A stretch of DNA of 64,000 nucleotides, from positions 62,001 through 126,000 of the forward strand of contig CAJQUW010008671.1 of NCBI GenBank assembly GCA_907163375.1, written 5' to 3'. How positions within the stretch are numbered: the stretch's first letter is position 1; each line of letters begins with the position of its first letter. The notes under the pieces are model-generated. The model saw only the letters and a program-made list of their open reading frames with translations. It was not told where the DNA came from and searched no databases. The DNA is from Prostheceraeus crozeri. Its lineage: Eukaryota; Platyhelminthes; Polycladida; Euryleptidae. The position numbers were made by a program, and so were the translations under genes. Below, piece after piece: positions 16,834 through 57,720 of this stretch.

Positions 16834-16883
16834 TGGAAGACATCTCCGTTGACCCATGAACCGATGTCCATTATAAAAAATGT

Positions 16884-19063: not shown

Positions 19064-19100
19064 TATTTCTATTAAAATAGACTTATATATTTAAATAATT

Positions 19101-19300: not shown

Positions 19301-19366
19301 TTATATATATTAATATATTATTTTTTTATAAAGAATAAAATATTATTTTATTAAAATATTCTTAAG

Positions 19367-19494: not shown

Positions 19495-19536
19495 AACAAA
19501 TAATAACTCCTAAATTTTTTATTTAAAAAATAATAA

Positions 19537-20025
19537 ATGAATAAAAGCGAAAATTTGGAAGATTTATATTCACCGGTTATAATTAAAAGTGATAAAAGTA
19601 ATAAAAGTAATCTAAGTCGTCATAAATCTCTTAATGCAATAAACGAAATAATAAATAATTATATGAATAACACTGAGTTTCAAGATACACTAACCCCTCA
19701 AGATCCGAATCTCAAAGATATTAATAATATTGTAGATAATCCTATATATAATACTAAATATAATAATAATATAGATAAAAATATATATAATAATAATATA
19801 GATAAAAATATATATAATAATATAGATAAAAATACATATAATAAAAGATATTTAGAGACACTACCCCCTAATTCATCTCTTAATAAAAAAATACCACAAT
19901 CAGATCTTACACGTCTTTGGAATTTTTTAAAATTTCATTGTATAAAAATATTGTTAGCATGTATTTTAATATTTTTTATTTATCATCTTGTTATATGTAT
20001 TGGTAATCAATGGGTTACTTTCTAA
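19537..20025 (+). CDS. Single-pass membrane protein with Asn-rich repeats
   Basis: 162 residues. The N-terminal ~125 residues are polar and Asn/Ile/Lys-rich, with repeats of NNIDKNIYN. A hydrophobic segment follows (KILLACILIFFIYHLVICIG, residues ~136-156), leaving only a few residues after it, so it looks like a tail-anchored or type II protein. No homology recognised. It lies upstream of the first ATPase and overlaps the N-terminal extension frame of that gene (ATG 20010). Confidence 0.5.
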   Translation: MNKSENLEDLYSPVIIKSDKSNKSNLSRHKSLNAINEIINNYMNNTEFQDTLTPQDPNLKDINNIVDNPIYNTKYNNNIDKNIYNNNIDKNIYNNIDKNTYNKRYLETLPPNSSLNKKIPQSDLTRLWNFLKFHCIKILLACILIFFIYHLVICIGNQWVTF

Positions 20026-20143
20026 CAGAGGAACAAAAGAGAATAAATTTTTATAAACAAGAAAAAAAACTTTTGAAGGATGGAAGACTGAGGAAGATAA
20101 GATTAAGGATAAAACTAATAATAAAAATATTAAACAAGGTAAA

Positions 20144-21094: not shown

Positions 21095-21237
21095 ACAAAT
21101 TTATCATAATCAAACCGAAGGTACTAGGGCTTCGCACGATTTTGCAGATATATTAGTATTTTTTTCTCTAAAAATTAAAACATAAATTTTTTTTCTCTAA
21201 AAAATTAAAACAAAAATTTTTCTTTAAAAAATAAAAA
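21095..21237 (+). promoter_or_regulatory. Leader with repeated TTTTTCTCTAAAAATTAAAACA before polB
   Basis: Two to three copies of the word TTTTCTCTAAAAA(A)TTAAAACA (about 21164-21211) lie directly before ATG 21238. They are likely to be part of the polB promoter or leader. Confidence 0.4.
21127..21136. repeat. GC-rich mini-element upstream of PolB
   Basis: GGGCTTCGCA embedded in CCGAAGGTACTAGGGCTTCGCACG; an imperfect member of the hairpin family in the ATPase-PolB gap. Confidence 0.45.
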
Positions 21238-24200: not shown

Positions 24201-25890
24201 TTATACAATGAAATATCTACAGATAGATGTATTAATACTAGCTGATCTTTTTGAAAACTTTCGTGATATGTGTTTAGAATATTACGGAATAGATCCATGT
24301 TATTGTTATTCTACACCAGGTTTAACATGGTTAGCAGGATTAAAACATACAAATGTTCAAGCCGATGGCTCTAGGAGAAAGTCCGTTAAACTTAAACATT
24401 ATAAAGAAAATACATATGATAAATTATTATTTTTTGAATCTGGAATTAGAGGTGGAGTTTCATCAGTTTTAGGTAATAGATATGTTAAATGTTATAATAA
24501 GAAAGTAAATCCACAAGAATATGGAATAATAAAACCTTTATCTCCAGAAGAAAAAGAAAAAATATTAGAAATTTTTCGAACGAAACGAGAAGGAGTAGAA
24601 CGTGAAAAAGCAATTGATGAATTCATGAGAGAAAACTATTTATTATATTATGATTTTAATAGCTTATATTCTTCTTGCATGATACAAGAATTACCAACAG
24701 GTGAAATGACATGGTGTAATAATCTAGATTATCAAAGAACATATGATGGTGAAAATAATTTTGGTTATGTATATGAAGTTGATTTAGTATACCCTGATTA
24801 TATAAAAGAAGCAACAAAATATTATCCTTTCTGTCCAGAAAACAAAATTCCCAATATAGAAGATTTTTCAGATTATCAAAAATCTATAATTCCGAAAAAA
24901 TACAGACCAACAAAAAAACTTATGTTAACACAAAGCAATAAAGGAAAGTATGTTGTTGAAGGAAGAATGCTAGATTGGTATTTAGATCATGGTATGATTC
25001 TCACCAAAATACATCGAAAACTAGAGTATAGAAAATCTAAATGGTTAAAAAATTATATAGAGTTCAATATTGAAAAACGTAAAATAGCTAAAAGAAATAA
25101 AGATGATTTTGGAAACGTTTTCTTCAAATTAATGAATAATGCATTTTATGGTAAGACTTTAGAAAATGTGCGTAATAGACAAAATATTGAAATAGTTTTT
25201 GATAGAGATAGATTTCAAAATTTAACAAGGAAACCTACATATAAAAGAACTACTAGATTCAGTGATGAACTTTGTGCTGTTCATCTAAGAAGAAGCATTG
25301 TAAAACATGATAAGTTTAATTTCATTGGTTTCACTATATTAGAATTAGCTAAACTATTTATGTATAGTTTTATATATGATTATTTAGCACCTGCTTATGG
25401 CAAAAACTATAAATTACACTTTACAGATACCGATTCTATTTTCTTAGAATTAACAGTACCATATGGTTCTTCACTAGATAAAGAAATTAATAAAATAAAA
25501 GATATCATTCATCCTTCTGATTTATGTAAAGTAAAAGATGAATTAGAAGGAAATGAAGATTTCATAACAGAAGCTATATTTTTAAAATCTAAATGTTACT
25601 GTTATGATACAACTAATAATATTAGGACATCGGAGATGTCTTCCAGGGCTTCGCCCGTTAAAACACATAAAACATTGAAAGGAATTTCAAAGGCATCAGT
25701 GGCTAATCAAATAACATTTCAAGATTATAAAAATGCATTATTTAATAATGAAATAAAAACAGCATATAATTATAGACTTAATTCAAAAAAACATAAAATG
25801 TATTTAAAAGAAGAACATAAATTAGCATTAGATCCATTTGATGATAAAAGAAAAATTTTACCTGATGGAATAACTACTTTACCTTTTTAA
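21238..25890 (+). CDS. polB: Protein-primed DNA polymerase B
   Basis: 1550 residues with no break. A C2H2-like finger opens the protein (CNLCKKKLQTKRSYQSHLQ). A Polinton-typical middle domain (DDYCFLWSIIAHLHP, ~250-275) and a second finger (CLQC...HLENC) follow. The exonuclease motifs are YCDFEA (~637), NGSKYDFHL (~841) and YLQIDVLILADL (~995). An HNH-like Cys/His block (CYYCGKGF...DHDHLNG) precedes motif II. Polymerase motif A is YYDFNSLYSS (~1137), motif B NNAFYGKT (~1302) and motif C FTDTDSI (~1397). It replicates linear element DNA from a terminal protein. Hairpin mini-elements are embedded in frame at 22648, 23204 and 25646 along with a five-copy SENYN repeat, all placed in linker regions. 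Confidence 0.96.
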   Translation: MKTFYCNLCKKKLQTKRSYQSHLQSKMHLQNVERVDEGNILKLNSYKNYIETLPTDIKVKKIFYDYSHSEYKKVFNSEDEAVTDIKYLFSDTDEFNEIDEFNEIDEFDEAERTDEALANIKYLFNQSFEHNETDKTFSDILTNFSNIFKKSFKCYMNVEVLYTKNGPDGIPEEIIQGHFTKSQEIHNVNDIQPIFESMILKLENCIIEAQLRESGWRFVKIISKKIVIDKYKNNTGGSYVPLPFSSPQLINIKNEDDYCFLWSIIAHLHPAKYHKERLSHYNKEEYISEFDLSDGLDEFPYDYNRLLKFHKKNKNLIEVNVFELNVNYVSIGKITPLYSDSKKFYLNNKNLCQSEIVYNDRGNYMHHNIFYQGNIICTEKFELVKTLSPIMINHNNYKGRTDDYNYKYSSLSSEYQQKLENLNKSLQKCKIDYQQQTKMLLQEYHHKYQNKIETIQKLNEENNKESAKARGASLRLNNEELNNEENETKQKINECLKKCLQQYKEQYDKEYSYQLQILNQNYYQNTFNLTKEINETYEIYKDEFEKLEQSKQPAQANILYYQGHFILCKDVSIFTKTSDNKNFPCLQCMTSFRTLEEMNRHLENCQQNEAVQNTFPKDDYLEYNKWYFKNKVPFTIYCDFEAYNVNMTQNQTESSRASPDSENYNSENYNSENYNSENYNSEKSAPEKSAPERSAPGKSSTEQSKEKYLFEQKPLCWGMYIHSNYPELFKSEYLQYYGEDSSEMFTKKVEELQGRFSQLLETNKPMIPLTDEERKEFYDEINCYYCGKGFTNKYKTGRGRYIDKVKDHDHLNGLYRGAAHNSCNLNANKFKYNFVPLYFYNGSKYDFHLVMKDLFSSEKLQQQKINVLCKQEEEYFSMQLGCIRILDAFRFFTPYSLDVMGKTLKSEQCKILNKYNLKPLKGIFPYEYIACGSQSKTDFNSVNKIMEEEQLPPINKFKSTLKQSQLSDEDYAEAEKNWRELNCKTMYDYTMKYLQIDVLILADLFENFRDMCLEYYGIDPCYCYSTPGLTWLAGLKHTNVQADGSRRKSVKLKHYKENTYDKLLFFESGIRGGVSSVLGNRYVKCYNKKVNPQEYGIIKPLSPEEKEKILEIFRTKREGVEREKAIDEFMRENYLLYYDFNSLYSSCMIQELPTGEMTWCNNLDYQRTYDGENNFGYVYEVDLVYPDYIKEATKYYPFCPENKIPNIEDFSDYQKSIIPKKYRPTKKLMLTQSNKGKYVVEGRMLDWYLDHGMILTKIHRKLEYRKSKWLKNYIEFNIEKRKIAKRNKDDFGNVFFKLMNNAFYGKTLENVRNRQNIEIVFDRDRFQNLTRKPTYKRTTRFSDELCAVHLRRSIVKHDKFNFIGFTILELAKLFMYSFIYDYLAPAYGKNYKLHFTDTDSIFLELTVPYGSSLDKEINKIKDIIHPSDLCKVKDELEGNEDFITEAIFLKSKCYCYDTTNNIRTSEMSSRASPVKTHKTLKGISKASVANQITFQDYKNALFNNEIKTAYNYRLNSKKHKMYLKEEHKLALDPFDDKRKILPDGITTLPF
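22648..22660. repeat. GC hairpin mini-element in polB (linker)
   Basis: GGAGC-TTC-GCTCC, flanked by CGGCTAAAGCCAGA and CGATT. It encodes RGASLR within a low-complexity coiled region. Confidence 0.7.
23204..23214. repeat. GC hairpin mini-element in polB (after exonuclease motif I)
   Basis: GGGC-TTC-ACCC with one mismatch, encoding SSRASP. It is immediately followed by the tandem SENYN codons. Confidence 0.6.
25625..25656. repeat. Composite GC hairpin mini-element in polB (C-terminal part)
   Basis: Two adjacent hairpins, GGACATC-GGA-GATGTC and GGGC-TTC-GCCC, encode MSSRASP again. The same composite occurs in reverse orientation in the intergenic copy at 16823-16859. Confidence 0.7.
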
Positions 25891-25998
25891 TTTTCTAATT
25901 TCTATTTTCTAAATTTAACAATATAACAATATAACAATATAACAATATAAAATATTATAAAATAAAATAAAATAATAATATAAAATTATCATATAAAA
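25891..25998 (+). promoter_or_regulatory. AACAATAT repeat leader
   Basis: About four copies of the 8-mer AACAATAT (25917-25948) followed by A/T-only sequence up to ATG 25999. Confidence 0.35.
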
Positions 25999-26831
25999 AT
26001 GGATAAAGTTAGAGCTGATAATTTTAAAAGAATAAAACAATTAGACGAATTAATAAAACAAAGAAATATTATGAAAGAAAATCATCTTCAACATAGAATG
26101 ACAAAAGCTGGTATTCAATCTGATATGTTTGATAAATTAAAATTAACTGAAGAAGTAAAAACTGATTATGAAAAAACTGTCGAACCATTTAAAACTCTTG
26201 AAAAGGAACTTAATGAAAAACGTGTTGATATAGCGGATCCTGTACTTAAAACACTATTAGATGACTATGGTTTATTAGAGGCAAACATAGATAAAAAATT
26301 ACCAAAATCTATGTTATTCGAACATTCTACTTTCTTTTTAGATAAAAAATTATTTGCAAGATTTTATCTTGGTGGTAAAGAAATATTTCCACAACCTTTA
26401 CGAGGATTAATTTTTACTCCAGATAAAAAACCTATTAGTTTAGATAGAAATTTTGTTGATCTTTTAAGAGGAGCAGATTTAAAAAATTATGCTGTAGAAG
26501 ATCTCATAAAATATAAAACTATATTAGATAGAGTTGGCACAGTAAAAACTCTTAGACGTTATAAACAATTAGAAAATTTATTATCAACGGGAGTTAAAGT
26601 AGGGAAAGGTTTATCTGAAAAACAGAAAACAAAAAACAGAAAACTGAAACAACTGTATTTTTACCAGATGATCCACAAGAATTACTAAATAGATTAAATA
26701 TTTTAATATCGGCAATAAAAGAAGGACATAATTCTAGTTTCAATGAAATTCATGCTATATTGAAAAGACTGTTAGAAAAGAAGATTCTAAATGAAGAGGA
26801 TTATAAAAGTATAACGAACCGAGTGATCTAG
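25999..26831 (+). pseudogene. Conserved Polinton protein of unknown function, -1 shift near the C-terminus
   Basis: The ATG-started frame runs 229 codons to 26688. It has an N-terminal charged helix shared with the 57-aa ORF at 16884, a helical middle, and a compact segment GGKEIFPQPLRGLIFTP followed by DLLRGADLKNY and IKYKTILDRVG. This last part recalls a protein widely kept in Polintons and adintoviruses next to capsid genes, whose role is unknown. The -1 frame then carries a helical tail (PDDPQELLNRLNILI) to a stop near 26831. The transition is in A-rich sequence near 26640. The shift may be a consensus error or real truncation. Confidence 0.55.
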
Positions 26832-26924
26832 GACTTCGCCCGTAGCTGAAATATGTTGTTGTTTTTAATTTTTTATAAAAAAAATATTTCATAAAAAAAT
26901 ATTTATTTAATTTTTAGTTTAAAA

Positions 26925-27713
26925 ATGTGTTCAGCAGATTTAGACAAAATTAATAATCATTTAGAAAATTTGATAGAGATTTTGGGTTCATCAAAATTTA
27001 GTACGACGTTAAAAATTATAACAACTACTTCATCACACACTTGTAATTTAGAACCCATTCTACATTTAGAACAAAATAAAAATTATCAAATTGCATTGAC
27101 TAGTTTCTCCACATTTAACACTATTCAAAACGTTATCAAAGATGTGAATGATCAATTTAGATATTCTACTGATAAAGGTAAAACATGGAAAATACTAACT
27201 TTTCTTCCTGGTTCTTACGAAGTTGAATCAATATCAAATGAAATTAAGAGACATTTAGGTATACCATTTAAAGATAAGAAACAATTACATTTTGCAGTTG
27301 AACCGGCAGTTAATAAATTTTCTCTTACTTTAGACGAAAATCATCAAGTTGATTTTAATCATGATAGATCATTGTCAAAGCTACTAGGATTTAATAAACA
27401 AACCTATAGTCAAGGTTATCATTTAGGTGAGAAGATTCCAAAAATAACTGAAATAAATTCAATTGTTGTACATTGTGACATTATTGAAGGAGGTTATATA
27501 AATGGTAAATTATCAAATTTAATATTCAGTTTTCCAGCTTTTACTGTACCCATTGGTTATAGATTAAATGTAATTCCACAAACATTAATATATTTTCCTA
27601 TTACAAGAAAAACTATTAACAACATTGGCATTAGAATCACTGATGAAAAAGGACAAGAAATAAATTTTGGAGGTGAAGAGATTATGATAGATCTTTTGGT
27701 TCGGGAGGTATAA
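26925..27713 (+). CDS. mCP: Minor capsid (penton-like single jelly-roll) protein
   Basis: 262 residues. The signature matches the Polinton minor capsid protein. FLPGSYEVESISNEI (~92-106) is followed by a strand block, then LSKLLGFNKQTY (~150-161), NSIVVHCDIIEGGYING (~186-202) and a C-terminal ITDEKGQEINFGGEEIMIDLLVRE strand pair. It would form the pentameric vertices. It lies between the conserved unknown gene and the second ATPase. The same family signature (VYCNIVxxxxVGG plus a terminal DDGxxIPIxxGRSY) is seen in element 2 at 47154-48875. The stop is followed by two GGGAGGTATAAACTCCC-type hairpins. Confidence 0.8.
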   Translation: MCSADLDKINNHLENLIEILGSSKFSTTLKIITTTSSHTCNLEPILHLEQNKNYQIALTSFSTFNTIQNVIKDVNDQFRYSTDKGKTWKILTFLPGSYEVESISNEIKRHLGIPFKDKKQLHFAVEPAVNKFSLTLDENHQVDFNHDRSLSKLLGFNKQTYSQGYHLGEKIPKITEINSIVVHCDIIEGGYINGKLSNLIFSFPAFTVPIGYRLNVIPQTLIYFPITRKTINNIGIRITDEKGQEINFGGEEIMIDLLVREV

Positions 27714-27742
27714 ACTCCCGTTCGAGAGGTATAAACTCCCAC
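27698..27742. repeat. Twin GGGAGGTATAAACTCCC hairpins at the end of mCP
   Basis: CGGGAG-GTATAAA-CTCCCG and a second GAG-AGGTATAAA-CTCCC overlap the stop region of the mCP gene; they may act in 3' end formation or be insertions of the mini-element type. Confidence 0.5.
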
Positions 27743-27817
27743 GCGAAGCTAGAGAAGTTTAATTTTCTTCTTCTTTAAAAACAAAAATAAAATAAAAATA
27801 AATTTTTTTATTAAAAA

Positions 27818-28585
27818 ATGAGTGAAGTGCTACCATTTAATAAAAAAAAACTTAAATTTAGTCATCATCCAAATTTATCTAATAAAGTTTTGGCAGTTAT
27901 TTGCGGAAGATCAGGTTGTGGAAAAACATATCTATTATTTAAAATTTTAACGACTCCAAATTTTTTGGATTATAACAATCTTATAATTTATACAACAACA
28001 GCAGAACAACCCATCTATCAATTTTTAAAATATGGATTTGAAAATAATCTTAAAAAAACAGCAATTGCTTCCCTATTCGAAGAATACGAAAAATCTGAAT
28101 ATGAAGAAGAAATAAGTTCATGGTGTGAGGAAGCAGTAGAAAATAGTCAGTTAGTCGAAACCAATAAAAATAACCATATAAAAATACAATTAATAGATGA
28201 TAGTGGTAATATGCAAGATCCTAGTAAACTAGATAAAACAATGAAACATTGTGTAATTTTTGATGATTGTGTTAATGATAGAAATCAGTCAGTTCAGAGA
28301 AATTATTTTACAAGAGGTAGACATAATAACTGTAGTGTATTTTATTTAACACAAAGTATGTATTCATTAGACGGAAGTGTTATTAGAAAGAATGCAAATA
28401 TATTTATACTATTTGAAATAAATGCAAGAAACTTAAGTGATTTGCTAAGAGATTTATGTATAAGAGATAAAGATGAATTTAAACAATCGTGTAATAATGC
28501 TTGGGCAAAAGATTATGGATTCATTACAATTAATATTGATAAAAAAATTCATGATAGAGTTATCGAACAATTGTTCTCTGACTAG
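27818..28585 (+). CDS. A32/FtsK-type genome-packaging ATPase, second copy
   Basis: 255 residues. Walker A is GRSGCGKTY (30-38) and Walker B CVIFDDC (145-151). TRGRHNN (166-171) and FYLTQSMYSLDGSVIRKNANI (175-194) are the signature of Polinton and NCLDV packaging ATPases. It is compact, without the C-terminal extension of the copy at 20144, and sits next to the minor capsid gene, the usual place. This is the better candidate for the packaging motor. Confidence 0.9.
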   Translation: MSEVLPFNKKKLKFSHHPNLSNKVLAVICGRSGCGKTYLLFKILTTPNFLDYNNLIIYTTTAEQPIYQFLKYGFENNLKKTAIASLFEEYEKSEYEEEISSWCEEAVENSQLVETNKNNHIKIQLIDDSGNMQDPSKLDKTMKHCVIFDDCVNDRNQSVQRNYFTRGRHNNCSVFYLTQSMYSLDGSVIRKNANIFILFEINARNLSDLLRDLCIRDKDEFKQSCNNAWAKDYGFITINIDKKIHDRVIEQLFSD

Positions 28586-28610
28586 GCTTCGCCTCGAGGG
28601 GCTTCGCCCC
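28584..28610. repeat. Twin GC hairpins after the packaging ATPase
   Basis: AGGC-TTC-GCCT (28584-28594) and GGGGC-TTC-GCCCC (28598-28610) stand back to back directly around the ATPase stop codon. The stems differ by paired changes, so pairing is preserved. Confidence 0.7.
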
Positions 28611-31260: not shown

Positions 31261-32019
31261 TTAGTGATGGATGGATCCTGATTTAATTCGCTTCAGCCAT
31301 TCTAGTACGAATAGGGTTGCTGAAGCGATCGATGATATCGACATCAAATCGTCTATAGAAAAAGAACAATCAGAATGACGTAGTACAATATGACCTAAGA
31401 TGACACTCGTACTGTCTAGATTATCAATGCTTCTTCGATGTTCAGCAAAACGGACGCCGAAGGGTCGATTCGTAGAGCCAATGTAGCAATCATTGCATAG
31501 TCTCCTCGCAAATCGATATACAACATAGCACATGCTACAATTATACCTATTAGGAAGCGTTTGACAAACTTTGTAGTCACATTTTTCAGTATAACTAAAA
31601 TTGAAATTGCTGCAAATTTTGGTACCGGGTTGATTTATGACTCTGATAGGTAAATCGCAATTCTTAGTTAATTTGTTGATTTTACGGGTAGTTGCGTTGC
31701 TCACGAAATTCAATTTTAAATTGATTTTGTTGGGATAGTTATGGTTACTAGTCGTAGGCTTATCAACGTTAGGGTACTGGAAAGGGTTGAACCCATTGAG
31801 TTTTAGTTTAAGATCCATTTTAGTTTTACTATTTTTCAAGTTGTTTGCGTCTGAACAACGGTTTTCTAGATATTTGTAACTATTGCTAACGAACTTCGAT
31901 TTTATATGAGACGGTACCCAGCTATCTATATGCATAGAATTACCGGAGTGACATTCTTTATTATACCAGGTGAAGTCAATGCGGTCATTGACAGTTATAC
32001 TAAGATCTAAAAAGTTGAG
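31261..32019 (-). pseudogene. Penelope-like element, C-terminal (GIY-YIG) part, split by Polinton 2
   Basis: The frame enters at the Polinton 2 junction and ends at 31261. It encodes the connector after the RT core, then a GIY-YIG-type endonuclease: C-x2-C pair in CSMCYVVY, CYIGSTNRPFGVRFAEHRRS, and a terminal helical tail. Its N-terminal RT half is on the other side of the Polinton, at 57145-57720, and the reading frame continues exactly across the 6-bp duplication. The element is an EN-positive Penelope-type retroelement, already decayed at the 5' side (in-frame stop near 57405). Confidence 0.85.
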
Positions 32020-32025
32020 AACGTT
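32020..32025. repeat. Target-site duplication of Polinton 2, left copy
   Basis: AACGTT. The hexamer is itself palindromic, so it can be mistaken for part of the TIR; continuity of the interrupted RT frame with one copy removed shows it is the duplication. Confidence 0.93.
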
Positions 32026-32277
32026 AGTAGCAAAGTCTGGCCCCCGTCCGCAGCATTTGCACTAAAGTACATGACCTTGCCCCGGGCATCGGAGCACACG
32101 CCCACGCATCAGAGCACGGGGTGGCTAAGAGGACAGGAAACGGAGCACACGCCCACGCATCGGCGCACTTGGGGGCTAAGAGCACGGAGCACCAATCGGA
32201 GCACGCGGCGCCGAGCACGTGTGATGAGTCACAGCAAGGTATATAAGTAAGGCGCTGTCAGAGAAAATCATTCTCAT
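32026..32277 (+). repeat. Left TIR of Polinton 2
   Basis: It contains GC-rich direct repeats of CGGAGCACACGCCCACGCAT and related GGAGCAC words, then GTGATGAGTCACAGCAAGGTATATAAG. It has fewer copies of the 20-bp repeat than the right TIR, so the two have changed length independently. Open frames across it are by-products of the repeats. Confidence 0.93.
32240..32247 (+). promoter_or_regulatory. TATA box in left TIR
   Basis: TATATAAG, 41 nt before ATG 32281; the identical core promoter in the right TIR drives polB. Confidence 0.75.
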
Positions 32278-34322: not shown

Positions 34323-34330
34323 TATATAAG
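34323..34330 (+). promoter_or_regulatory. Internal TATA box
   Basis: TATATAAG within GGGTATATAAGTC, 39 nt before ATG 34362; same core as the TIR promoters. Confidence 0.7.
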
Positions 34331-38799: not shown

Positions 38800-38801
38800 A
38801 C

Positions 38802-38810
38802 TAAGTTATG
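38802..38810 (+). promoter_or_regulatory. TAAGT-class promoter motif
   Basis: TAAGTTATG, 33 nt before ATG 38835, just after the previous stop. Confidence 0.55.
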
Positions 38811-41604: not shown

Positions 41605-42780
41605 ATGGATTTCCGTTTAGAGAATGACTCATCCATGATTGTCTCGGGTCCTAGTAAATCGGGAAAGTCCACGTTTGTGGCGAATATGATCAAGAATCGT
41701 CATACTTTATTTAAAAAGCCCATTCGTAAAGTCTGGTGGTATTATGGGATAGAAAGTCCATTTCATAAAGAGTTACAAGATGTGATCTTGAAAATGGGTG
41801 TCCCTACCCAAGATGATTTTGATCAATTGCAAGAAAATGATTTAATTATTCTCGATGATTTACAACAGGAATCTCAAAACAATGAAACTGTTACGGGATT
41901 ATTTTTAAGAGGATCTCATCATAAACGGTTTTTCGCAGTGCAAATCACACAGTATTTGTATGGTGATAAAGAACAACGTATTCGTAATGGCAATGTCCAT
42001 TATTTGGTCGCGTTCAATAATCCGAGAAATCAACAACAATTGGCTCAATTCATGGGGAAAATGCTCCCGAAAGGCAATATGAGCGTCGTGCATGATATTT
42101 TAACGACATTGGTTCAAAAGTATGGGAATTATGCCTACCTCTTTATTGATTTCACTACAAATTGTCCGTTTGAGTACCGATTTCGCACCAACTTATTTAA
42201 TCCACCTATGATTGTGTTTAAGTTAAGCAAAAGACCCAATAAAACGAAAATGGACTTTAGTGAATTAGTGGTGGTTCCCAAATCTGAAATGAATGAACAC
42301 ACCGGTGGCGGACAGCAAATGGGTGGTGGTGGTGACAGTACCAAACTGATGTCGACCATGTTGCAACGTCAAGCGGAAGATCAGAGGGTGAGAAACATGA
42401 TGATGAATCCTCAACAAGCCCATCTTGACCGTATTGCACGAGATATTGTGCGTTACCGTCCTACTGCCAATAATATCGCTGCATGGAACGCCCGGATGTA
42501 TTTGTTCGATAAAGTTCGTCGCCAATTTTTCAATTTGGACGATGATAGTGGGAAGAGATTGGAAAAAACAACAAAACCTCCGCTCACTCACGTCGCAAAA
42601 CCTCCGCTCACTCACGTCGCAGATCCACCCGTCCTCAAGAGATCTAAAGGGAAAGTCGTCAAACCTTCTGTTGTCACATCTCCCAAGACGAAGCGTTCTC
42701 CATTGAAATCATCCATCAATACTCGTTTAAGTAAAAAAGGAGTTCTTGAATTGGGATCCTATGGCTCACCATTCAAGTAA
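41605..42780 (+). CDS. A32-type genome-packaging ATPase
   Basis: 391 residues. Walker A is GPSKSGKST (15-23), Walker B LIILDD (80-85), and LRGSHHKRFFAVQITQYLY (101-119) is the post-Walker-B sensor region of the Polinton packaging ATPases. After about residue 210 there is a C-terminal extension with a Gly-rich patch, a helical segment and two copies of KPPLTHVA (42577-42624). The stop TAA overlaps the ATG at 42780 (TAATG). The integrase frame follows in the same frame as the ATPase, so suppression of the stop would fuse the two. Confidence 0.88.
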   Translation: MDFRLENDSSMIVSGPSKSGKSTFVANMIKNRHTLFKKPIRKVWWYYGIESPFHKELQDVILKMGVPTQDDFDQLQENDLIILDDLQQESQNNETVTGLFLRGSHHKRFFAVQITQYLYGDKEQRIRNGNVHYLVAFNNPRNQQQLAQFMGKMLPKGNMSVVHDILTTLVQKYGNYAYLFIDFTTNCPFEYRFRTNLFNPPMIVFKLSKRPNKTKMDFSELVVVPKSEMNEHTGGGQQMGGGGDSTKLMSTMLQRQAEDQRVRNMMMNPQQAHLDRIARDIVRYRPTANNIAAWNARMYLFDKVRRQFFNLDDDSGKRLEKTTKPPLTHVAKPPLTHVADPPVLKRSKGKVVKPSVVTSPKTKRSPLKSSINTRLSKKGVLELGSYGSPFK

Positions 42781-44055
42781 TGGCAACGGCAGCCGCGCCA
42801 ATTGCCTCCTCATTCTTATCGCGTATCTTTGGGCGTTGTTGCGGCCAAGGCAACGCAGACGACAGCGCAGAGACACAGTACACCATCACGGCGAGCTTTA
42901 ATTGTTGTTCCAACGGGAATACCGCCTATCTTCAACCCCCACGTCAATTCCAAGCAGATTGTGTCGATGGAGGAAGTGTTGCACAAGATTTATTACAATC
43001 CCAAACATCCCGCTGGCTACGGAAGCGTCAATGCACTTGCTGCTGCTTCACATTATTCAAAAACAAAAGTCAAACAATGGTTAATGCGTCAACCGACCTA
43101 CACCCTTCACAAATCTCGATTGCATCGTATTAAGCCCTTGCACCCGTATCGTGTACGCGGTCCGCAAATTCAATTTCAAGCGGATATTGTCGATTATCAA
43201 AAGTATGCACAGCATAATCGTGGCTACAAGTATATTCTCATGGTGATGGACATCTTTACACGCAAAGCCTGGGCATTCCCTCTCAAGACCAAGAGTGCCA
43301 AAGAAGTGTCGGGGGTTTTAGAAGCCATTTTCGCAACCATTCCCACCCCGCAACGACTACAAACGGATCAAGGCCGTGAATTTTATAACCGACCGGTGAA
43401 AGAAGTCTTGGACAAGCACGCTATTGAATTGTTTTCCATCTACAGTCCCTATAAATGTGCTCATGTCGAACGATTGAACCGTACTGTCAAGAATAAATTG
43501 GAACGTATCTTTACAGCCACCAATAACAAGAATTGGGTGGATTATATCGCAGATGTCATGTATGCATACAATCACAGCACCCATTCATCCACAGGTTTCA
43601 CCCCGATGGATGTGAATGCCTCCAATACCGAGGAAGTGAAACGAAACAATGCGAAACGTCTCCGACAAAACTATAAAAAGTTTGCAGTCCCGGGAAAGTC
43701 TATCCCTGTGGGAGCACGTGTACGTATTTCACGTGATAAAGGAACGTTTGGACGAGGGTATGAAGCGAATTGGTCGACGGAAGAGTTCATTGTCTCCAAC
43801 ATTCTCAAGAACCCTCATGGTACCAAAATGTACAAGATCAAAGACTTGAGTGGAGAAGAGATCAAAGGATCCTTTTATGCTCAGGAATTACAAGTGATTC
43901 ATCGGGAGGAAGAAGTATATCAAGTGGACAAAGTGCTCAAGACCCGACGTCGGAATGGACGTACAGAATATTTTGTGCACTGGCAAGGATATCCGGCCTC
44001 GATGAACTCATGGGTGACAGACTTAGAACCTCTAGGTAATGTACGCCGCTATTGA
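42780..44055 (+). CDS. int: Retroviral-type integrase with C-terminal chromodomain
   Basis: The integrase frame is open from 42781; its clear coding part starts by about 42890 and there is no ATG before it in that frame. ATG 42780, which overlaps the ATPase stop, is in another frame and would need a shift downstream, so the true start is uncertain. The rve core is complete: QADIVDYQ, LQTDQGREFYN and HVERLNRTVKNK give D,D,E. An SH3-like tail precedes a chromodomain (YQVDKVLKTRRRNGRTEYFV, then HWQGY and NSWVTDLEPL) at about residues 370-412. Integrase with a chromodomain is a classical Polinton arrangement and may target histone marks. No PLA2 domain is present, unlike element 1. Confidence 0.9.
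44033..44040 (+). promoter_or_regulatory. TAGGT-class promoter motif
   Basis: TAGGTAAT, 33 nt before ATG 44066, inside the end of the integrase gene. Confidence 0.5.
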
Positions 44056-44065: not shown

Positions 44066-47000
44066 ATGCAGGAACTGCATGAGGAACAACATGTGTACTT
44101 GTTGAGCAATACTCAACCCCATTTGTATGACAATAAAGCCAATCATTTCTTTACACGACTGGAAAATCCACTTTTTATTCCTAAAGGAGAAACATGGGAA
44201 GTAGGCTTGAAAGAGTTTGGGTATGTGAATAATGTGGATACGATTCCCGAAGATTGTTATATTACCGTGGGGAAAATGGTGGATACGAAAGATTTGAAGA
44301 CCTATTTGCCTTATTATACGATGGAAGGGACCAATGTGGTCCGTCGTCACACCATTTTTGAATCCGATGAGGAAGTGAAAAGAGTACCCATTATCACAGC
44401 GTTGGAATTATATACACGTCGTACCATTTCCAACATGATGACTGTCACGACACATCCATCCTACTTGTATTATGGATGCAATGGCATAGAGGAAGCAGAT
44501 GTCTATGTGATTGACATTGTCCCATTTTCCCTGTTTCAAATCAAGGAATTCTCCGCTTTTCATTACGTCCTTGTGTTTCCCCTCATTTGGCGGCCTCACT
44601 CTTATTGGACAAATGTGTCTATCATTTATCGTTGAAGGATGTCGTTCGGATCCATACACGACTCTCCATTCATCGAAAGGAATGTGACGTAAAGAAATAT
44701 CCCGCCCATGACTATTGGTTCAGTGTGATTCCCTTACACCGCTGTCATTTTGCCAAACATGGGATTGAAAGGATGTTGGGAAATGAAATCTCAGTGCTCA
44801 ATTTATTCAAACAATTAGAATGGTTTGGTGTGGGGAAATTAGTGTTTCATTCATCCAACAGATTGTCCTTTCATGTGAAGCATGCTTCCAGTTATACATT
44901 GTCTGCTATGGATTATGGGATCCTATCCGAATTGCAGAAAATAGCCACTGTTTACATGGCTCCCCCAGTGACCTATAAGGATATACAACCCCTGAGTGAT
45001 GATACGACACGTGCTGTGTGGATGAGGACCGATACCTTTGTGAGCTCTCTCAAACGCAATGCAAAGGCACCTCCTATTCCCAGAGGGTATATAGGCCTGT
45101 TTCATAATCTTCGCATCCTTCTTCCTAAACTGAGAGAGTTGATGAAAGCAGTGAGAATGTATCAACGCACCTTTTTCCGATTGCAACATTTGGCCTCTAA
45201 AAAATGGATTGCTTTACCAACACGCACCATGAAAAATCAATTTATTTTCCCAGTGGAGTTCCTAAATCCACTCACTCCAAAAGAACGTGAAAAGGAGTAT
45301 CAACATCCCAAGAAAAAACATTTGCCATCTGTAAACTCTACCGCCTTAGACGTCACCGTCTTAGTCGCTACATCAAACTCCGTGCCATGGTTCAGAAAGC
45401 GTATTGATCAATTGTATGACAAGATTGATACACAGTTACACAAGATCGATCCTACCATCAATATAGCCGATGCTCCTGATTTAGTCACCTCCCGTTTCTT
45501 GCATACCTATATCAACACACTGAATGCAAAGTACCGCAACATGATGCGAATCCTACGTCAACACAAGATGGAAGGTGTTTTAGTCTCTAAACGATTCGGA
45601 GCCAAGAAGCGATTGTTTGATACTGTCTTATTGAAAAATTTTCGAAAATCGATTCAAAAGGAACAAGTCACAAAACGGCCTATTATTCATCATTTAGTTC
45701 ATTCCCATCCTAAAGATGGGAAAGAAAATGTATTGGCCAGTGGTGCGGATATGCAGCATGAAACGGGGCAACATGCACTTCCCTTCACACCTACGGAAAA
45801 GTATCATATCTACAACACTTATAATGTATTTGCCTATCATAGTTTGGTGGATTTGATGGAGATGTATGGGAATATTCTCCATGATTTTGAAGTGAAACAG
45901 GAACGGTTGACAACGTTAAGAAGGAGGGTGAAAGAATTCAAACCCACTGCAGGAACTGATCATCTTGACGAGAACGTTCGTGAACGAGATAGGGTGAATG
46001 CAGAAGTGACTGTGTTGAAAACGGATCTTTGTCAATTAACCAAGGAGAACAAACTGTTATTTTATGTGTCTAGACCTGAATCGTTTTATTACAAGAATTT
46101 AGAGAGTGATAAGACGTGGAGTTCTATCGTCCCCACAGGTTATTATTCGTTGGAAACCTATTTGAATACCATCTTCCCCGCCCCCATGACATGGACCATC
46201 ACATCCATGTCCTATCATTATGAACTGACCATCGATTGCACGGACGATATGGAAATCAAGATGGACCGGCAATCTAAAGCCTATGAGATTTTCAAAGCAG
46301 AACAAGTAGCTACCTACGTGTGGGACGAATGGATCTTGGAATTCCCCCTCAGCACGATTCATGTTCCCTCCTTTATCCTTCAGAAACAAACCATGGAATT
46401 GGACGCTCTCTTTGAAAAGAAGAGTGTCCCCTATGCATTGAATGGGACCCATGTCTTGCTTCGAAACGGAAAACCGACACAACAGTATAAGACCGAGGAT
46501 AGGAAGCATCCCAATATTCTCAACATCAAACATGGCGACTATTTTGAGATTTTTCATACCCTATCTCATCTCCCTAGTCCATTACGATTCAATTTACCCA
46601 CGAAATACTATACCCTCCAATCCTTTGTGCAAGCTTTCAATCAAGCCATCCCCCTGCCTGATATGGTGTGGGTGACGTATACAACAGTGGGCGTCTTTCA
46701 CGTGCTTCACTTTAAAATCGCGGAAGGGTATTTGTTGAAAATCAATCCCCCACAACTCTGGCAACACATGTTGAATCATAGTCATGAATATGGTATGTTC
46801 ACCTATCATGAACAAACCTGTATACACTCGGAAACGCCGGAACATTGTTCTGCAAGTTACCGTCGGTATCAACAACGTCCAAAACATGTCACCCATGGGA
46901 TGACATTACACATCTATGGTTTACCGGAATATACCTTTGATTATGCCAAAGGATGGAACCACACCCTCGACACCCTCTTCCCATGGAAAGGGAAGGAATT

Positions 47001-48904: not shown

Positions 48905-49564
48905 ATGACGAATCTCTTTTTAATCCGTAACCGAACAAATTCCTCTGGACGATTGTTTGGAAGAGGTTCATTTATGCAACGAGGTGGATGGAATAAAGTG
49001 ATTGGACAGAAAACACGCATGATTAGACCACGTGTCACTGGTGTCAAGAAATCATCCATCCGTCTGCCCAAATCACTCAAAAAGAGAGTTCCCAGAAAAA
49101 CATTTCGAAAACCATCTCGAAAAACCCCTCGACAACCCTCTCGACAACCCTCTCGAAAACCATCTCGACAAGCATCGCGAAAAACATCGCAAAAAGGACT
49201 TGTACATACGGTACAGAAAACGTTGGGAAAATCGTTACGTACGACAGAGTTTCTCAATTCTGCGAAACAAGCTGTCACGGATGCTGTCAGCTCTACCGCA
49301 CAAGAAGGAGTTGATCGTCTCAAAAAGGGTGTGAAAGCGCTCGCCAAACGCACCTTACAGACTGCTCCCGAACGTGTTGTAGAAGCTATTCAAAATAAAG
49401 TGAGTCGGAAACGCGTCTTCACGGATGAAGAAGGAGATAGGGTGGAAGCACCTGCTCCTAAACGTCGCCGTGGTCATGTGAACATTGCCCATCATACGAA
49501 ATGGGGGAAAGGAAGTTTGATGGGGCGTTATCGCGGAGGTGCTAAACAACGCATGCTCTTTTAA
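48905..49564 (+). CDS. Basic core protein with PSRK/PSRQ repeats
   Basis: 219 residues. Residues ~60-95 are Ser-Arg/Lys repeats (KPSRKTPRQPSRQPSRKPSR), flanked by a basic N-terminus and a helical Ala-rich segment; the C-terminus has KRRR and RYRGGAKQ. The composition is that of a DNA-condensing virion core protein (pVII-like role) or a pVI-like protein, placed just upstream of MCP. The repeats are short and may expand or contract. Confidence 0.6.
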   Translation: MTNLFLIRNRTNSSGRLFGRGSFMQRGGWNKVIGQKTRMIRPRVTGVKKSSIRLPKSLKKRVPRKTFRKPSRKTPRQPSRQPSRKPSRQASRKTSQKGLVHTVQKTLGKSLRTTEFLNSAKQAVTDAVSSTAQEGVDRLKKGVKALAKRTLQTAPERVVEAIQNKVSRKRVFTDEEGDRVEAPAPKRRRGHVNIAHHTKWGKGSLMGRYRGGAKQRMLF

Positions 49565-49600: not shown

Positions 49601-50968
49601 ATGGCGGAAACACCTGCATTATTGGATGCTCGTTACGATGTATTCCAAAGTGATAAAGTCGATGTCTCGAGTACTTCTCAGCATACGAGCGTTCTGACGC
49701 CAGTCAATGGATTGGAAAATCCCGGTACCATTCAATTCACAGTCCCTCGACTAGCCATTCATTGGATGGATGTATGCAATGCCTATTTTCGCGTGGAAGT
49801 ACAACTCATGAAACATGATGCGGCTAAAGGAGCAGACGTGCCATGTGAGTCGTCAGACAAGGCGATTATTATCAACAATACGGCCCACTCCCTCTTTTCC
49901 GACATTACTATCCGCTTGAATGAACGCACCATTGAAGGAGGCAATGACTTGTATTATTTGAGAGCTTACCTTAGCAATCTTTTACAATACACCAATGATG
50001 TGAAGAATACACACATGGTCACACAAGGTTTTACTGTTCCTCAAGTGATGTATGACACGGAGTTTGATGCAGCGAGTAAGACGGTGAAGTCTAAGGCGGT
50101 AGAGTTTACAGATAAAGAGAATGCACTCAATCAAGCCATTCTCAAACAATGGGCAGACCACAAATTTAAACGTACCTTTGACTTTCCCCTGAAATGTAAT
50201 TTGTTCCAACAAGTGATTGCTCTGCCCCCAGGCATGCAACTGGATCTCATTTTCACCTTGAATAAACCGGAATATGCCATTTATGATATGGCACATGCTG
50301 CAGGGACGACCTCTACAAAGTACAGGTTCAAAATCACCTCTTTCCAATTGTATATGCCCATGCTCACACCGAATGCAGAACTGCAATTGAAAACTGCGAA
50401 TCGACGCAAGACAGAAGCCATTTATTATCGCTACAATGGCATGACCGTCCAACGACAAACGATTGAACGTGGAATACAAAAGAAGACGTTTTCCAATGTG
50501 GCCGCTCTATTGAGTCCTAAACTCATCTTTTTCGCTGTTGTTCCCAGTAACTCTTGGTTTGATCCAGGAAGTCGTAAACTCTATTTTGAAAGGCATGGAC
50601 TCTCTCAAGTCACCATGACCACCAATGGAGCCATCATGACAGGAGGCACCATCAATTGCAAAGATGACGTGATTGCCTACAGTCAATTCAATCGTGCGAT
50701 TCAAGTCTATAACACGAATGAATCGTGTGGTATTGATTTAGAGAGTTTTACCAAATACTGTTACTTTATCGCCTTTGACTGTACCTTGGATAAACAAATC
50801 GATAGTGTTCAACCCACCAATACACGTCAATATGGACTGGAATTGCAATTTGAGAATACGACCACGCAAAATATGGATTTATTAATGTTTGTCATTCATG
50901 ACGAACAATTCTCCGTCACACCGGAGAATGCTGTCATCTCCAGTGCGTATATCCCACCCGCTATTTAA
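49601..50968 (+). CDS. MCP: Major capsid protein (double jelly-roll)
   Basis: 455 residues, uninterrupted. Beta-rich throughout: GTIQFTVPRLAIHWMDVCNAYFR (split strands near 50-70), ADLT-like SLFSDITIRLNERTIEGG (~100-117), FDFPLKCNLFQQVIALPPGM, LYMPMLTPNAELQ and a C-terminal AFDCTL / YGLELQFE / LLMFVIHDEQFS block. This is the pattern of Polinton hexon-like capsid proteins, and the gene sits between core-protein and protease genes. It would form the capsid shell together with the penton-like proteins. It shares little obvious sequence with the MCP of element 1, as expected for separate lineages. Confidence 0.78.
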   Translation: MAETPALLDARYDVFQSDKVDVSSTSQHTSVLTPVNGLENPGTIQFTVPRLAIHWMDVCNAYFRVEVQLMKHDAAKGADVPCESSDKAIIINNTAHSLFSDITIRLNERTIEGGNDLYYLRAYLSNLLQYTNDVKNTHMVTQGFTVPQVMYDTEFDAASKTVKSKAVEFTDKENALNQAILKQWADHKFKRTFDFPLKCNLFQQVIALPPGMQLDLIFTLNKPEYAIYDMAHAAGTTSTKYRFKITSFQLYMPMLTPNAELQLKTANRRKTEAIYYRYNGMTVQRQTIERGIQKKTFSNVAALLSPKLIFFAVVPSNSWFDPGSRKLYFERHGLSQVTMTTNGAIMTGGTINCKDDVIAYSQFNRAIQVYNTNESCGIDLESFTKYCYFIAFDCTLDKQIDSVQPTNTRQYGLELQFENTTTQNMDLLMFVIHDEQFSVTPENAVISSAYIPPAI

Positions 50969-50999: not shown

Positions 51000-51720
51000 A
51001 TGTTGAAGGAGCCCGAGTATCACGTTCCTCCTATCGCTTGGACACCTCTTTATCAACATCGTCTCATTAAAGCTCAGCGTTGGTTGAATGGGAGACTGGT
51101 TAAGCAACACGGAAATCGAAGGAATCATGCAGGGTATGAATCAATTACAAGAGAAACATTTACTCAATGCCTGCATGTGCGAAGATGATTTTCTCTGTGC
51201 TATTCAGTGTAGTTGTCAAACGTTTGCTCATCGCCTCCTCCAATCTTCTTACGTTCCCTTCCAAGGTGTGTTTCCTGCTGATCTACTTCCTGCTCATTCC
51301 CCGGAATCAAAGACACTTATTGTCAATAGTGATCGCTCTCATCAACCTGGCAAGCATTGGCTGGCCTTTTATCAAAATGCGGATCAACGCGTGTGCGAAT
51401 TCTTTGACTCTTATGGACTCACTCCATCTCACTATCCACATGTTACCGAGTGGTTATCGACAACACCTTATCCTTTAGACTATCGTCGCCCTCTGCGTAT
51501 ACAAGGTCCTAAAGCCTATTGTGGTGCTTACTGTATTTACTTTTTAAACCATCGCCCTTTTAACACGTCTATGGATAAAACACTGACCTTCTTTCGAACA
51601 TTGGATGCTCACGAGAAAGATCAAGAACTCATTAAAACCTACTTGTCCTTCAATGATAAAATTGTCTATTCCTATTTGTATTCTACATTATCCCATGTTT
51701 TGAAGTCAATAAAGAAATGA
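51000..51720 (+). pseudogene. pro: Adenain-like cysteine protease, frame change near its start
   Basis: All catalytic residues are present in the frame 51088-51720 (210 codons): His in GKHWLAFY (~90), Asp in FFDSYG (~107) and Cys in YCGAYC (~145). This frame can start at ATG 51088 (MGDWLSNTEIEGIM). The TAAGT motif, however, points to ATG 51000, whose frame runs smoothly to RWLNG and then needs +1 at the GGG run near 51087 to join the rest. The shorter start would still give a complete protease core, so the gene may be functional as written. It ends with AATAAAG overlapping the stop region. Confidence 0.82.
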
Positions 51721-51873: not shown

Positions 51874-52368
51874 TCATGCACGATATACAGTGACTGTTGA
51901 AGCTATGTCTTGATCACAAAGGGGACAAGATGACGTTTCAAAGGGAACATAACATGTAGAACACATAACACTATGAGAACATGGTAAAAAGAGAAGGGAC
52001 CGTTCCTGTTTAAAACATTTAACACAGTTCCGTTCACATAATAATTTAAATGTCTCTTCTTCCAATTTCTTTCTAAAGTCACTTTTATGGGTAGAGTTAT
52101 CTGACACATCAGTTGCAAATGTCACTTTTTTCACTCTAGATCGCGCCAATGTCATTGCATTGCAGTGTAGCATGGAGAAATCCTCTATCCACCTACGATC
52201 CAAATGGTGATTCATAGCATGCTCATCGAGATCCATTAGTCGATCCAGTAATTCACCAGCGGTGATCTTTTCACTGAGATGTGTTACAGTTTCTATAGCT
52301 TTGAACGAATATCCAAGGTCTCTTGCGACAACCCACGACGTTGGGATACTAGTCACTGTCCGATTCAT
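51874..52368 (-). CDS. IAP-like protein with UBA-like and C-terminal RING domains
   Basis: Start at ATG 52368 is chosen because the longer frame lies inside the upstream TBP-like gene; 164 residues. After ~10 residues comes a UBA-like helical segment (ARDLGYSFKAIE ... TAGELLDRLMDLDE), as in the middle of cellular IAPs. The C-terminus is a C3HC4 RING: CVKC, FLPCSHSVMCSTC, CPLC, ending DIASTVTVYRA like IAP RINGs. BIR domains are absent. It would be an E3 ubiquitin ligase that could modulate apoptosis or other host pathways, probably acquired from a host. It overlaps the end of the TBP-like gene by about 20 nt. Confidence 0.75.
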   Translation of the reverse strand: MNRTVTSIPTSWVVARDLGYSFKAIETVTHLSEKITAGELLDRLMDLDEHAMNHHLDRRWIEDFSMLHCNAMTLARSRVKKVTFATDVSDNSTHKSDFRKKLEEETFKLLCERNCVKCFKQERSLLFLPCSHSVMCSTCYVPFETSSCPLCDQDIASTVTVYRA

Positions 52369-52924
52369 TGAGGGAATCTCCTTCGAATAGGGATTTGAGA
52401 ATGTCTTCCACCAACGATTCCGCTTCTGCAATCGATAAGACACCCGTCACAATCACACTTCCGTTGGAAAAGAAGGAACAATGTAAATTACCTTTGCGTA
52501 TTAACGTTCCGGGAAACAGCTCGCGCTCGTTGGAAATCACCGATGTCGATGGCAACTGTTGAATGGTTTGCATGCGGTCTTTTGTATAGTTCCATTGACA
52601 TTGAACTGTGCAGGATTTTGTGATTGGGTCGCTCACGTCCAATCCGTAGGGGGCGAGTAATTGGCGCATCTCTTTACAAATACGATCGTAGGTTTCCAGA
52701 GAGTGGTTGCCCAAAATTTGGATACACCCCCGTGGAAAAATCTGTACAGTGACCGAAGAGTTCCATTTCCAATAGACTCGACAAGGGCGTGATGCTCGGT
52801 ATGTGGCCAGAGGGAGTTGCGGTAACAATGTCTGCAGTGGTATTGCGGAGGATGCTCTGAGCTCCACCATGCGGTTGCAGATCCTTGACATCTTTGACAG
52901 CGGGGTGTAGATACCCTTCTTCAT
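52349..52924 (-). CDS. TATA-binding-protein-like factor
   Basis: 191 residues from ATG 52924. It shows the two-fold repeat of TBP. Repeat 1 has VTVQIFPRGCIQILG (~58-72) and a following helix (YDRICKEMRQLLAPYG). Repeat 2 has ERELFPGTLIRKG (~133-145), LHCSFFSNGSVIVTG (~147-161) and a helix (AEAESLVEDIL). The ELFPGLIYR-like and FxSGxVxxTG patterns are signature positions of TBP core repeats. Several DNA-contacting positions differ, so binding specificity may have changed. Its first ~84 codons overlap the 3' end of the polB frame. TATATAAG boxes in this element fit a self-encoded TBP, which is inference. Confidence 0.72.
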   Translation of the reverse strand: MKKGIYTPLSKMSRICNRMVELRASSAIPLQTLLPQLPLATYRASRPCRVYWKWNSSVTVQIFPRGCIQILGNHSLETYDRICKEMRQLLAPYGLDVSDPITKSCTVQCQWNYTKDRMQTIQQLPSTSVISNERELFPGTLIRKGNLHCSFFSNGSVIVTGVLSIAEAESLVEDILKSLFEGDSLNESDSD

Positions 52925-56867: not shown

Positions 56868-57138
56868 AATGAGAATGATTTTCTCTGACAGCGCCTTACT
56901 TATATACCTTGCTGTGACTCATCACACGTGCTCGGCGCCGCGTGCTCCGATTGGTGCTCCGTGCTCTTAACCCAAGTGCGCCGATGCGTGGGCGTGTGCT
57001 CCGTTTCCTGTCCTCTTCGCAACCCCGTGCGCCGATGCGTGGGCGTGTGCTCCGATGCGTGGGCGTGTGCTCCGATGCTCGGGGCAAGGTCATGTACTTT
57101 AGTGCAAATGCTGCGGACGGGGGCCAGACTTTGCTACT
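56868..57138 (-). repeat. Right TIR of Polinton 2
   Basis: Reverse complement of the left TIR with an additional CGGAGCACACGCCCACGCAT-type unit (57015-57075 region). The homology ends about seven bases upstream of the polB ATG. Confidence 0.93.
56899..56906 (-). promoter_or_regulatory. polB: TATA box in right TIR (polB promoter)
   Basis: TATATAAG on the minus strand, about 38-45 nt before the polB ATG at 56861. Confidence 0.75.
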
Positions 57139-57144
57139 AACGTT
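57139..57144. repeat. Target-site duplication of Polinton 2, right copy
   Basis: AACGTT directly after the last TIR base; same as 32020-32025. Confidence 0.93.
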
Positions 57145-57720
57145 GTTCTTTGGTACTTCGAGAGTGAACTGGACGGAATTATGAATCGAATTGAAAGTAT
57201 TTAAAATTTTACTACTTTTACTATCGTTAGTAGGGAATGGTCCCAAGATGATGTCATCAATATAGCGCTTGTAAAGACAAGGAGCAATATTATGCGAAAG
57301 AAGTATTTCCAACGCTCTCTGTTCTATGGTAAACATGAATACAACCGAAAACGCTGGTTCAAAATGTGAGACCATTGGACAGCCACTAATTTGTAAATTA
57401 GTTTTATCTTAGTATTGGATTTCATAATAATAGCTAACAAAATTTAAGAAATCTTCGATATCGGCTACTTTGAAGCCATAGTTATCCACGATATTCCAGT
57501 TAGATCTCGCATAACTAACAACAGCATTCATGCCTTCCATTATGGGAATGCTAGTTAGCATTTTTTCACGTCTGATATGAAAGTTTGATTATTGTGAGGT
57601 GAAATTTTAAGAGAATTTAGATATACCTATAAGATCATCCGTACTGCTGATATTAGTAGGAACCAATTTCACAAGTTGGTTGATAATTTTTCTAAGCAGC
57701 CAATCGATCTTGTCGGTCAG
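57145..57720 (-). pseudogene. Penelope-like element, RT part, split by Polinton 2
   Basis: The RT core is recognisable on the minus strand. There is a decayed SLFT-IPI-like motif near 57550, QISGCPM.SHFEPAFS near 57370, and the catalytic YKRYIDDI (about 57260-57285). The connector then reaches the junction at 57145. An in-frame stop near 57405 and codon changes show it was already dead. The rest of the protein is at 31261-32019. Confidence 0.82.

Follow-up and report, generated by a model that had tools for sequence, protein, structure and literature searches.

The DNA analysed here (the window; 64,000 nucleotides, C7213:62001-126000) comes from the genome of Prostheceraeus crozeri, which was searched as 2.05 billion bases in 14,165 contigs. 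A Polinton occupies positions 32026-57138 of the window (Table 1). As in Polintons/Mavericks and adintoviruses, terminal repeats and a 6-bp duplication enclose genes for a family B DNA polymerase (polB), an RVE integrase and a putative ATPase, protease and capsid protein, but the P. crozeri element differs from them by the presence of a gene encoding a TATA-binding protein (TBP). We know of no TBP in the Polinton/Maverick and adintovirus gene lists.

Table 1. Genes, terminal features and candidate promoter elements of the TBP-bearing Polinton (positions in the window).
Feature	Position	Strand	Evidence or remark
Target-site duplication AACGTT, left copy	32020..32025	.	Sequence; 6 bp
Left terminal inverted repeat	32026..32277	+	Starts AGT
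TATATAAG, left terminal repeat	32240..32247	+	41 nt before p141 ATG
TATATAAG	34323..34330	+	39 nt before p333 ATG
Late-type element CTAGGTAA	36388..36395	+	35 nt before 131-aa ORF
Late-type element CTAAGTTA	38801..38808	+	34 nt before 131-aa ORF
Late-type element CTAAGTAA	39227..39234	+	37 nt before 120-aa ORF
TATATAAA	39989..39996	+	38 nt before p196
Putative packaging ATPase	41605..42780	+	Pfam AAA-type and Pox_A32 below cut-off; PHROG ATPase E=0.0012
RVE-type integrase with chromodomain	42967..44055	+	Pfam rve E=5.1e-12, Chromo E=2.6e-8
Late-type element CTAGGTAA	47944..47951	+	32 nt before 299-aa putative spike gene
Putative spike or penton-like protein, 299 aa	47976..48875	+	Collagen-like GXY segment
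Late-type element TTAAGTAA	48868..48875	+	37 nt before 219-aa gene
Basic 219-aa protein, possible core protein	48905..49564	+	Sequence composition only
Late-type element CTAAGCAA	49568..49575	+	33 nt before putative capsid gene
Putative major capsid protein	49601..50968	+	Gene order and BLASTP to same-position gene elsewhere
Putative adenain-like protease	51088..51720	+	Pfam Peptidase_C5 E=3.1e-4, 20.9 bits (cut-off 21.3)
RING-finger protein, 164 aa, immediately after TBP	51874..52368	-	Pfam PF13920 E=1.2e-10
TBP-like gene, 191 aa	52349..52924	-	Pfam TBP PF00352
polB, family B DNA polymerase, ORF 1395 aa	52674..56861	-	3' end overlaps TBP gene
Right terminal inverted repeat	56869..57138	-	Ends ACT
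TATATAAG, right terminal repeat	56899..56906	-	45 nt before polB ATG
Target-site duplication AACGTT, right copy	57139..57144	.	Sequence; 6 bp

The polB core shared 49% identity with a protein labelled PF03175 (DNA_pol_B_2) and 28% with the other Polinton polB within the window; as follows from its family, the enzyme is presumably protein-primed. The ATPase and protease were named from Pfam matches below the cut-off and from a gene order that recurs in other TBP loci, where BLASTP matches of the putative ATPase lie near the integrase. The 299-aa putative spike protein matched the Pfam collagen repeat at E=3.9e-6 (27.0 bits, cut-off 27.2) and was weakly similar to genes adjoining TBP in other families. 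The capsid protein, which matched nothing in Pfam or PHROG and nothing meaningful in the PDB, is a putative one, named from gene order and from BLASTP matches in other families, such as one at E=1.2e-20 to its positional counterpart in locus L009.

Inside the element, a 62-nt inverted repeat, 94% complementary, was found at 45327-45388 and 50052-50113. Two ORFs bordering the Polinton (31261-31935 and 56896-57375), read by eye as a GIY-YIG end and part of a reverse transcriptase (YIDD), look like parts of a minus-strand Penelope-like retroelement that the Polinton seems to have interrupted. The window also holds a second, AT-rich Polinton-like element (about 12000-28600) with integrase, polB, ATPase-like and putative capsid genes; there is no second TBP in the window, and the AT-rich Polinton (~12-28.6 kb) is without one.

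The first-pass annotation had described the 191-aa protein as TBP-like, with two imperfect repeats bearing signature positions, and the profile and structural comparisons proposed with it bore this out. The stretches IFPRGCIQILG (residues 62-72), ELFPG (135-139) and FFSNGSVIVTG (151-161) aligned to the corresponding strands of yeast TBP. The ORF matched PF00352 at E=1.4e-11 (44.5 bits, cut-off 22.9) in two stretches, the profile of its family matched TBPs of the PDB at E=8.4e-18, and the predicted fold is a two-repeat TBP saddle; identity to cellular TBPs was about 20%. The homologues near polB for which a search had been recommended were found in the same genome, and it is nearly certain that this TBP is encoded by a Polinton. 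Its ORF overlaps those of polB by 251 nt and of the RING protein by 20 nt. Because three relatives (P0002, P0003, and P0005) start at the position that corresponds to Met12 (52891), this residue may be the true start.

The residues of the saddle were compared, in yeast numbering and by their known roles in yeast TBP, in an alignment (A3) of 46 sequences comprising the window protein and 45 of the 48 matches described below (P0020, P0032, and P0035 were omitted as short). Yeast TBP was aligned to these sequences in two ways, which agree on the counts given here save for one row at N69. Most of these yeast residues are DNA contacts and E188 is a TFIIB contact, as given in the accessible part of PMC12529657. 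F116, F190, F207, P191, T215, and E188 were kept in 46/46 sequences, E186 was Glu in 41 and Asp in 5, so that the TFIIB-contact Glu residues are present in the Polinton protein, and N69 was kept in 31 of the 31 or 32 sequences with a letter there, depending on the method. Three of the four intercalating Phe were kept in all 46 sequences, and the fourth, F99, was lost, being Pro in 44 of the 44 with a letter; the protein is therefore a diverged member of the TBP family, not a canonical TBP. The repeat-1 minor-groove residues L114 and V122 were replaced by Gln in 46/46, T124 was Leu in 45/46, and N159 was Ser in 31, Thr in 1 and kept as Asn in 14. On the DNA-facing surface, Gln61, Gln69, Phe63, Phe137, and Phe152 of the Polinton protein were conserved in all 46, and among 21 loci of the P. 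crozeri genome (19 distinct places) Gln61 was found in 20/20 and Gln69 in 19/20 with a letter. Compared with cellular TBP (archaeal/eukaryotic, PF00352), the protein thus differs in having Pro for F99, Gln for L114 and V122 and Leu for T124, and in being encoded by a transposon.

A first protein search with the TBP returned 8 relatives. With a profile the number was 48 (E<=1e-3), 46 of them carrying a precomputed PF00352 label. P0001, 98% identical to the window TBP, may be the same element. The TBP relative P0031 and the polB relative P0054 both lie on contigs of 14,267 bases; when TBP contig sizes were jittered, a match above 10 kb arose in 0.6% of trials and any match in 25%. Beyond P0054, no polB among the 120 matches listed out of 550 sits on a contig of the same length as that of a TBP. 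Five of the 10 nearest polB relatives (P0051, P0052, P0053, P0055, and P0057) lie on contigs of 18.9-23.8 kb with no matching TBP listed, and TBP may not be universal in the Polinton lineage, although the argument is a weak one because each cluster is represented by its longest contig alone. No relatives were found in IMG/VR, scanned with the TBP itself and with alignments of TBP (three) and of polB (two), in GTDB genome contigs or in a phage collection.

Within the P. crozeri genome, the Pfam TBP search (best 150 of 10,982 candidates scored, all over the cut-off) returned eight loci, of which L001-L003 were read as host genes and L004-L008 were not. Sixteen stretches of 9.5 kb (L009-L024) were added, picked for variety and thus non-random, and, as two pairs of loci coincide, 19 distinct TBP places were available. 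A TBP frame lay among Polinton genes at 19/19 of these other places, and polB was present in 16/16 of the 9.5-kb stretches. Two layouts recur, the capsid and spike genes being named from gene order: in one, integrase, capsid and protease genes are accompanied by TBP on the opposite strand before spike-like genes, and in the other polB stands tail-to-tail with TBP. The window has a third, in which polB, TBP and RING follow one another on one strand. Two further arrangements were observed: L023 (5724-9236) holds two polB C-terminal parts side by side on opposite strands, an inverted duplication in a Polinton copy, and L021 (8787-9500) holds a gene 82% identical to the 262-aa gene of the AT-rich Polinton, about 4 kb from the TBP frame, which suggests nested or adjacent elements.

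The best 150 of 9,623 candidates from a search with the window TBP protein, including the window's own copy and all covering at least residues 1-190, were 97-100% identical and without a stop, in a ranking that favours intact copies; the best 40 of 339 first-look candidates of a DNA search were 98-100% identical over 575-576 bases. With so many near-identical copies, these counts being lower bounds, the window TBP family is highly amplified and recent.

An origin from host TBP, TRF or TLF was also considered. L001 and L003 were read as holding host TBP exons and L002 a TLF-like gene; the L001 repeat-1 exon has the ordinary Leu/Val where the Polinton family has Gln, the repeat-1 frame of L002 is incomplete, and L003 is repeat 2. 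The family is too diverged for its cellular source to be placed, and the yeast TBP end branch reached 5.4 changes per column in the tree described next.

The TBP tree comprised 57 rows, of which 45 came from the 46-row alignment A3 (short P0048 was left out), one was yeast TBP and 11 were frames from the same genome that cover at least 120 model positions, the shorter frames of five loci being omitted. A group of 32 rows (100/98) holds the window protein and its nearer relatives, which fall within P0001-P0033, and the diverged loci of the same genome fall outside it together with P0034-P0047. The polB tree (52 rows: the window, the AT-rich element, 36 of the 120 listed matches and 14 loci of the same genome) grouped the window with P0049-P0058, P0054 included (11 rows, 100/100), opposite a 35-row group (99/95) that contains the loci of the same genome; the AT-rich Polinton, which has no TBP, falls outside. 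The same deep split in both trees was read as vertical inheritance of a TBP that predates it, within the limits set by long branches and by genomic context that is missing for most rows.

Among the 29 of the 40 DNA-ranked copies that were examined, 25 were intact, 3 had a premature stop and 1 a one-base deletion; at least 3 of the other 11 give a 575-base match to the 576-base query and may be broken. Against a neutral N:S expectation of 2.87, variants shared by at least 2 of the 27 full-length copies comprised 16 silent and 8 replacing changes (omega ~0.17, p=3e-5), and singletons 23 silent and 33 replacing (omega ~0.5, p=0.014). That expectation may be a little high, given that singletons ought to be close to neutral; compared directly, shared and singleton variants gave a Fisher p=0.051. 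The half of the gene clear of the polB overlap had 8 silent and 4 replacing shared variants (p=0.003). The shared TBP variants are thus under purifying selection. A count of 24 silent to 5 replacing changes from 30 protein-ranked copies was set aside in favour of the DNA-ranked set because protein ranking favours unchanged proteins. Altogether, there is strong support for TBP as a recurrent, selected and old Polinton gene.

The window contains 7 copies of TATATAAG against 2.79 expected (at least 7 in 2/100 shuffles), and 3 of these 7 lie inside the TBP-bearing Polinton, two of them being the same sequence in both terminal repeats. The first-pass annotation had stated that exact TATATAAG boxes precede several genes; this holds for p141, p333 and polB, but apart from these and p196 (which has TATATAAA) none of the other 20 starts examined, with TBP counted twice, had a TATAWAW within 150 nt, those of the putative capsid, protease, integrase and ATPase genes included. 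The further claim that these boxes would be an obvious substrate is the weak part of that annotation: L114 and V122 are Gln in 46/46 sequences, several structural genes have another motif and no TATA box, and host TBP, which already reads TATA boxes, could serve them, so they are not an obvious private substrate. No obvious promoter was seen for the TBP gene itself. The TATA box of the terminal repeats (32240-32250 and 56896-56906) reads TATATAAGTAAGG, in which a host-type TATA box and a late-type TAAGTAA overlap at both ends; one protein might therefore read both.

The other motif, [CT]TA[AG]G[TC][AT]A, was first spotted by eye in this element and the pattern was then fixed. Where 3.1 copies would be expected on each strand, the element carries 14 on the plus strand and a single one on the minus strand, and 8 of the 14 plus-strand copies lie 32-37 nt before an ATG opening at least 60 codons. 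Of the 24 ORFs of at least 90 aa, 6 have the motif 32-37 nt upstream of their first ATG, against 0.21 expected (P 9e-8), a value that is circular because the motif was composed from the same element. A blind k-mer scan supported the motif in this element only at k=8, where the -45..-20 window reached 8/23 genes and the 15 other windows at most 5; at k=6 another window was higher (5 vs 4), and at k=7 another tied at 9. The second family, L009, was obtained after the pattern had been fixed, and there the motif preceded 3/10 ORFs at 35-39 nt (0.11 expected, P=2e-4), with AAGCAA as the best 6-mer of the -45..-20 window (5/7, and at most 3 in other windows).

L009 is the sole other family that clearly passes this comparison. 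In L011 the motif preceded 1/12 ORFs (P 0.053), L017, L018, and L023 had one motif each at 26 nt, and it was absent before the ORFs of L010, L012, L013, L015, L016, L020, and L024; in L012, L013, L020, and L024, TATGCAA was found 30-38 nt before some ORFs. The motif lay near the start of 0/13 ORFs of the AT-rich, TBP-less Polinton and of 0/7 ORFs of the element flanks. In the element itself, the protease, integrase, ATPase, p254 and p785 genes have no copy 20-48 nt upstream of their first ATG. The promoter motif is the most doubtful step of the interpretation that follows.

We consider, with a probability of roughly 0.55, that the gene encodes a viral TBP of a deep Polinton lineage, made early and directing late transcription through a modified core element. 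The TBP, assumed to be co-transcribed with polB, would probably be expressed early, from a polB transcript starting at the terminal-repeat TATATAAG that host TBP can read. With its saddle, three of four DNA-kinking Phe and the TFIIB-facing loop kept, and its repeat-1 half altered (L114/V122 to Gln, F99 to Pro), the protein would bind [CT]TA[AG]G[TC][AT]A, or a site much like it, some 32-39 nt upstream of the ATGs of capsid and other structural genes and recruit host TFIIB and RNA polymerase II there. In a canonical TBP-TATA complex, it is repeat 1 that lies over the 3' half of the box; we infer that the late-type motif, with a TA-rich 5' half and an invariant G in its 3' half, fits the altered repeat 1. 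Through these changes in TBP and promoters, the protein may switch on the element's own capsid genes. A late-promoter switch with changed specificity is thus a good proposal that lends itself to testing. Its more specific form, in which the TBP is a dedicated factor of a whole deep branch of animal Polintons and its two invariant Gln re-tune the saddle for G-containing late promoters of the TA[AT]G[CT]AA type, is put forward tentatively, at slightly less than even odds.

The viral TBP could instead bind the host-type TATATAAG boxes and generally raise transcription of the element's TATA genes, as the exact boxes before p141, p333 and polB, the TATATAAA before p196 and the F190, F207, P191 and T215 retained in repeat 2 would suggest; we find this unlikely, since the L114 and V122 contacts of repeat 1 are changed in 46/46, the putative capsid, protease, integrase and ATPase genes have no TATA boxes, and such boxes are, as is generally known, already readable by host TBP. 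The kept E186/E188 loop, together with the loss of one of the four Phe, would also suit a protein that lowers host transcription by drawing TFIIB or other general factors away from host TBP, but a pure decoy would not need the DNA-facing surface conserved at Gln61, Gln69, Phe63, Phe137 and Phe152 in all 46 sequences, which makes this role improbable. Slightly less probable again is a replication or packaging factor bending DNA at the terminal repeats, not at promoters: TBP does lie near the polB end in several families and the terminal repeats contain a TATATAAGTAA site, but in other families it is kilobases away from polB, with protease and spike-like genes on either side, and TBPs are transcription factors in every family known to us. 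That the gene is a pseudogene of a captured host TBP, or that the protein has its TBP-like fold by chance and no function, might be imagined from the ~20% identity to cellular TBPs and the 4 broken copies among 29, but is highly improbable given the purifying selection on shared variants, the 25/29 intact copies and the conserved relatives.

The early-to-late switch favoured here would resemble that of the beta- and gamma-herpesvirus vTBP, yet would be simpler and TFIIB-dependent. As described in the accessible part of PMC12529657, KSHV ORF24 has Ser/Asn at the L114/V122 positions, all four Phe and no TFIIB-contact Glu, reads TATTWAA late promoters, extends to residue 752 with N- and C-terminal domains, and works with five other viral activators. 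On that account, both proteins have a viral TBP domain with polar L114/V122 positions and are associated with a non-TATA late core element, which in the Polinton is a candidate one; the Polinton protein differs as a bare TBP core of 191 aa that keeps the Glu and is without the extra N- and C-terminal domains.

A TBP domain is also present in large eukaryotic DNA viruses, the Nucleocytoviricota and mirusviruses, but identity to their TBP-like proteins was 7-18% in 34 structural matches at E<=1e-3 and several of these proteins are longer; the genomes of these viruses are also much larger. In the accessible parts of the two reports, TBP is a mirusvirus core gene (PMC10132985) and TATA-binding proteins occur in mirusvirus-like heliorhodopsin elements (PMC10675990), and the accessible part of the latter does not report a TBP in its Polinton-like viruses. 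The main text of PMC12220804 does not contain the word TBP. In the Polinton/Maverick/adintovirus/virophage literature searched, which took in few subscription papers and no preprints, no title or abstract listed described a Polinton TBP.

Polintons have been proposed as ancestors or relatives of many eukaryotic DNA viruses, and they are now a further virus-like setting with a TBP of its own, besides large nucleocytoplasmic viruses, mirusviruses and herpesviruses. To our knowledge, almost nothing is known of the timing of Polinton gene expression in animals, and a TBP with altered contacts, together with a candidate second class of promoters, makes that timing directly testable. If the reading of a re-tuned saddle is true, the Polinton protein would be a minimal, one-protein viral pre-initiation switch, and such viral TBPs would have arisen, or converged, outside giant viruses and herpesviruses.
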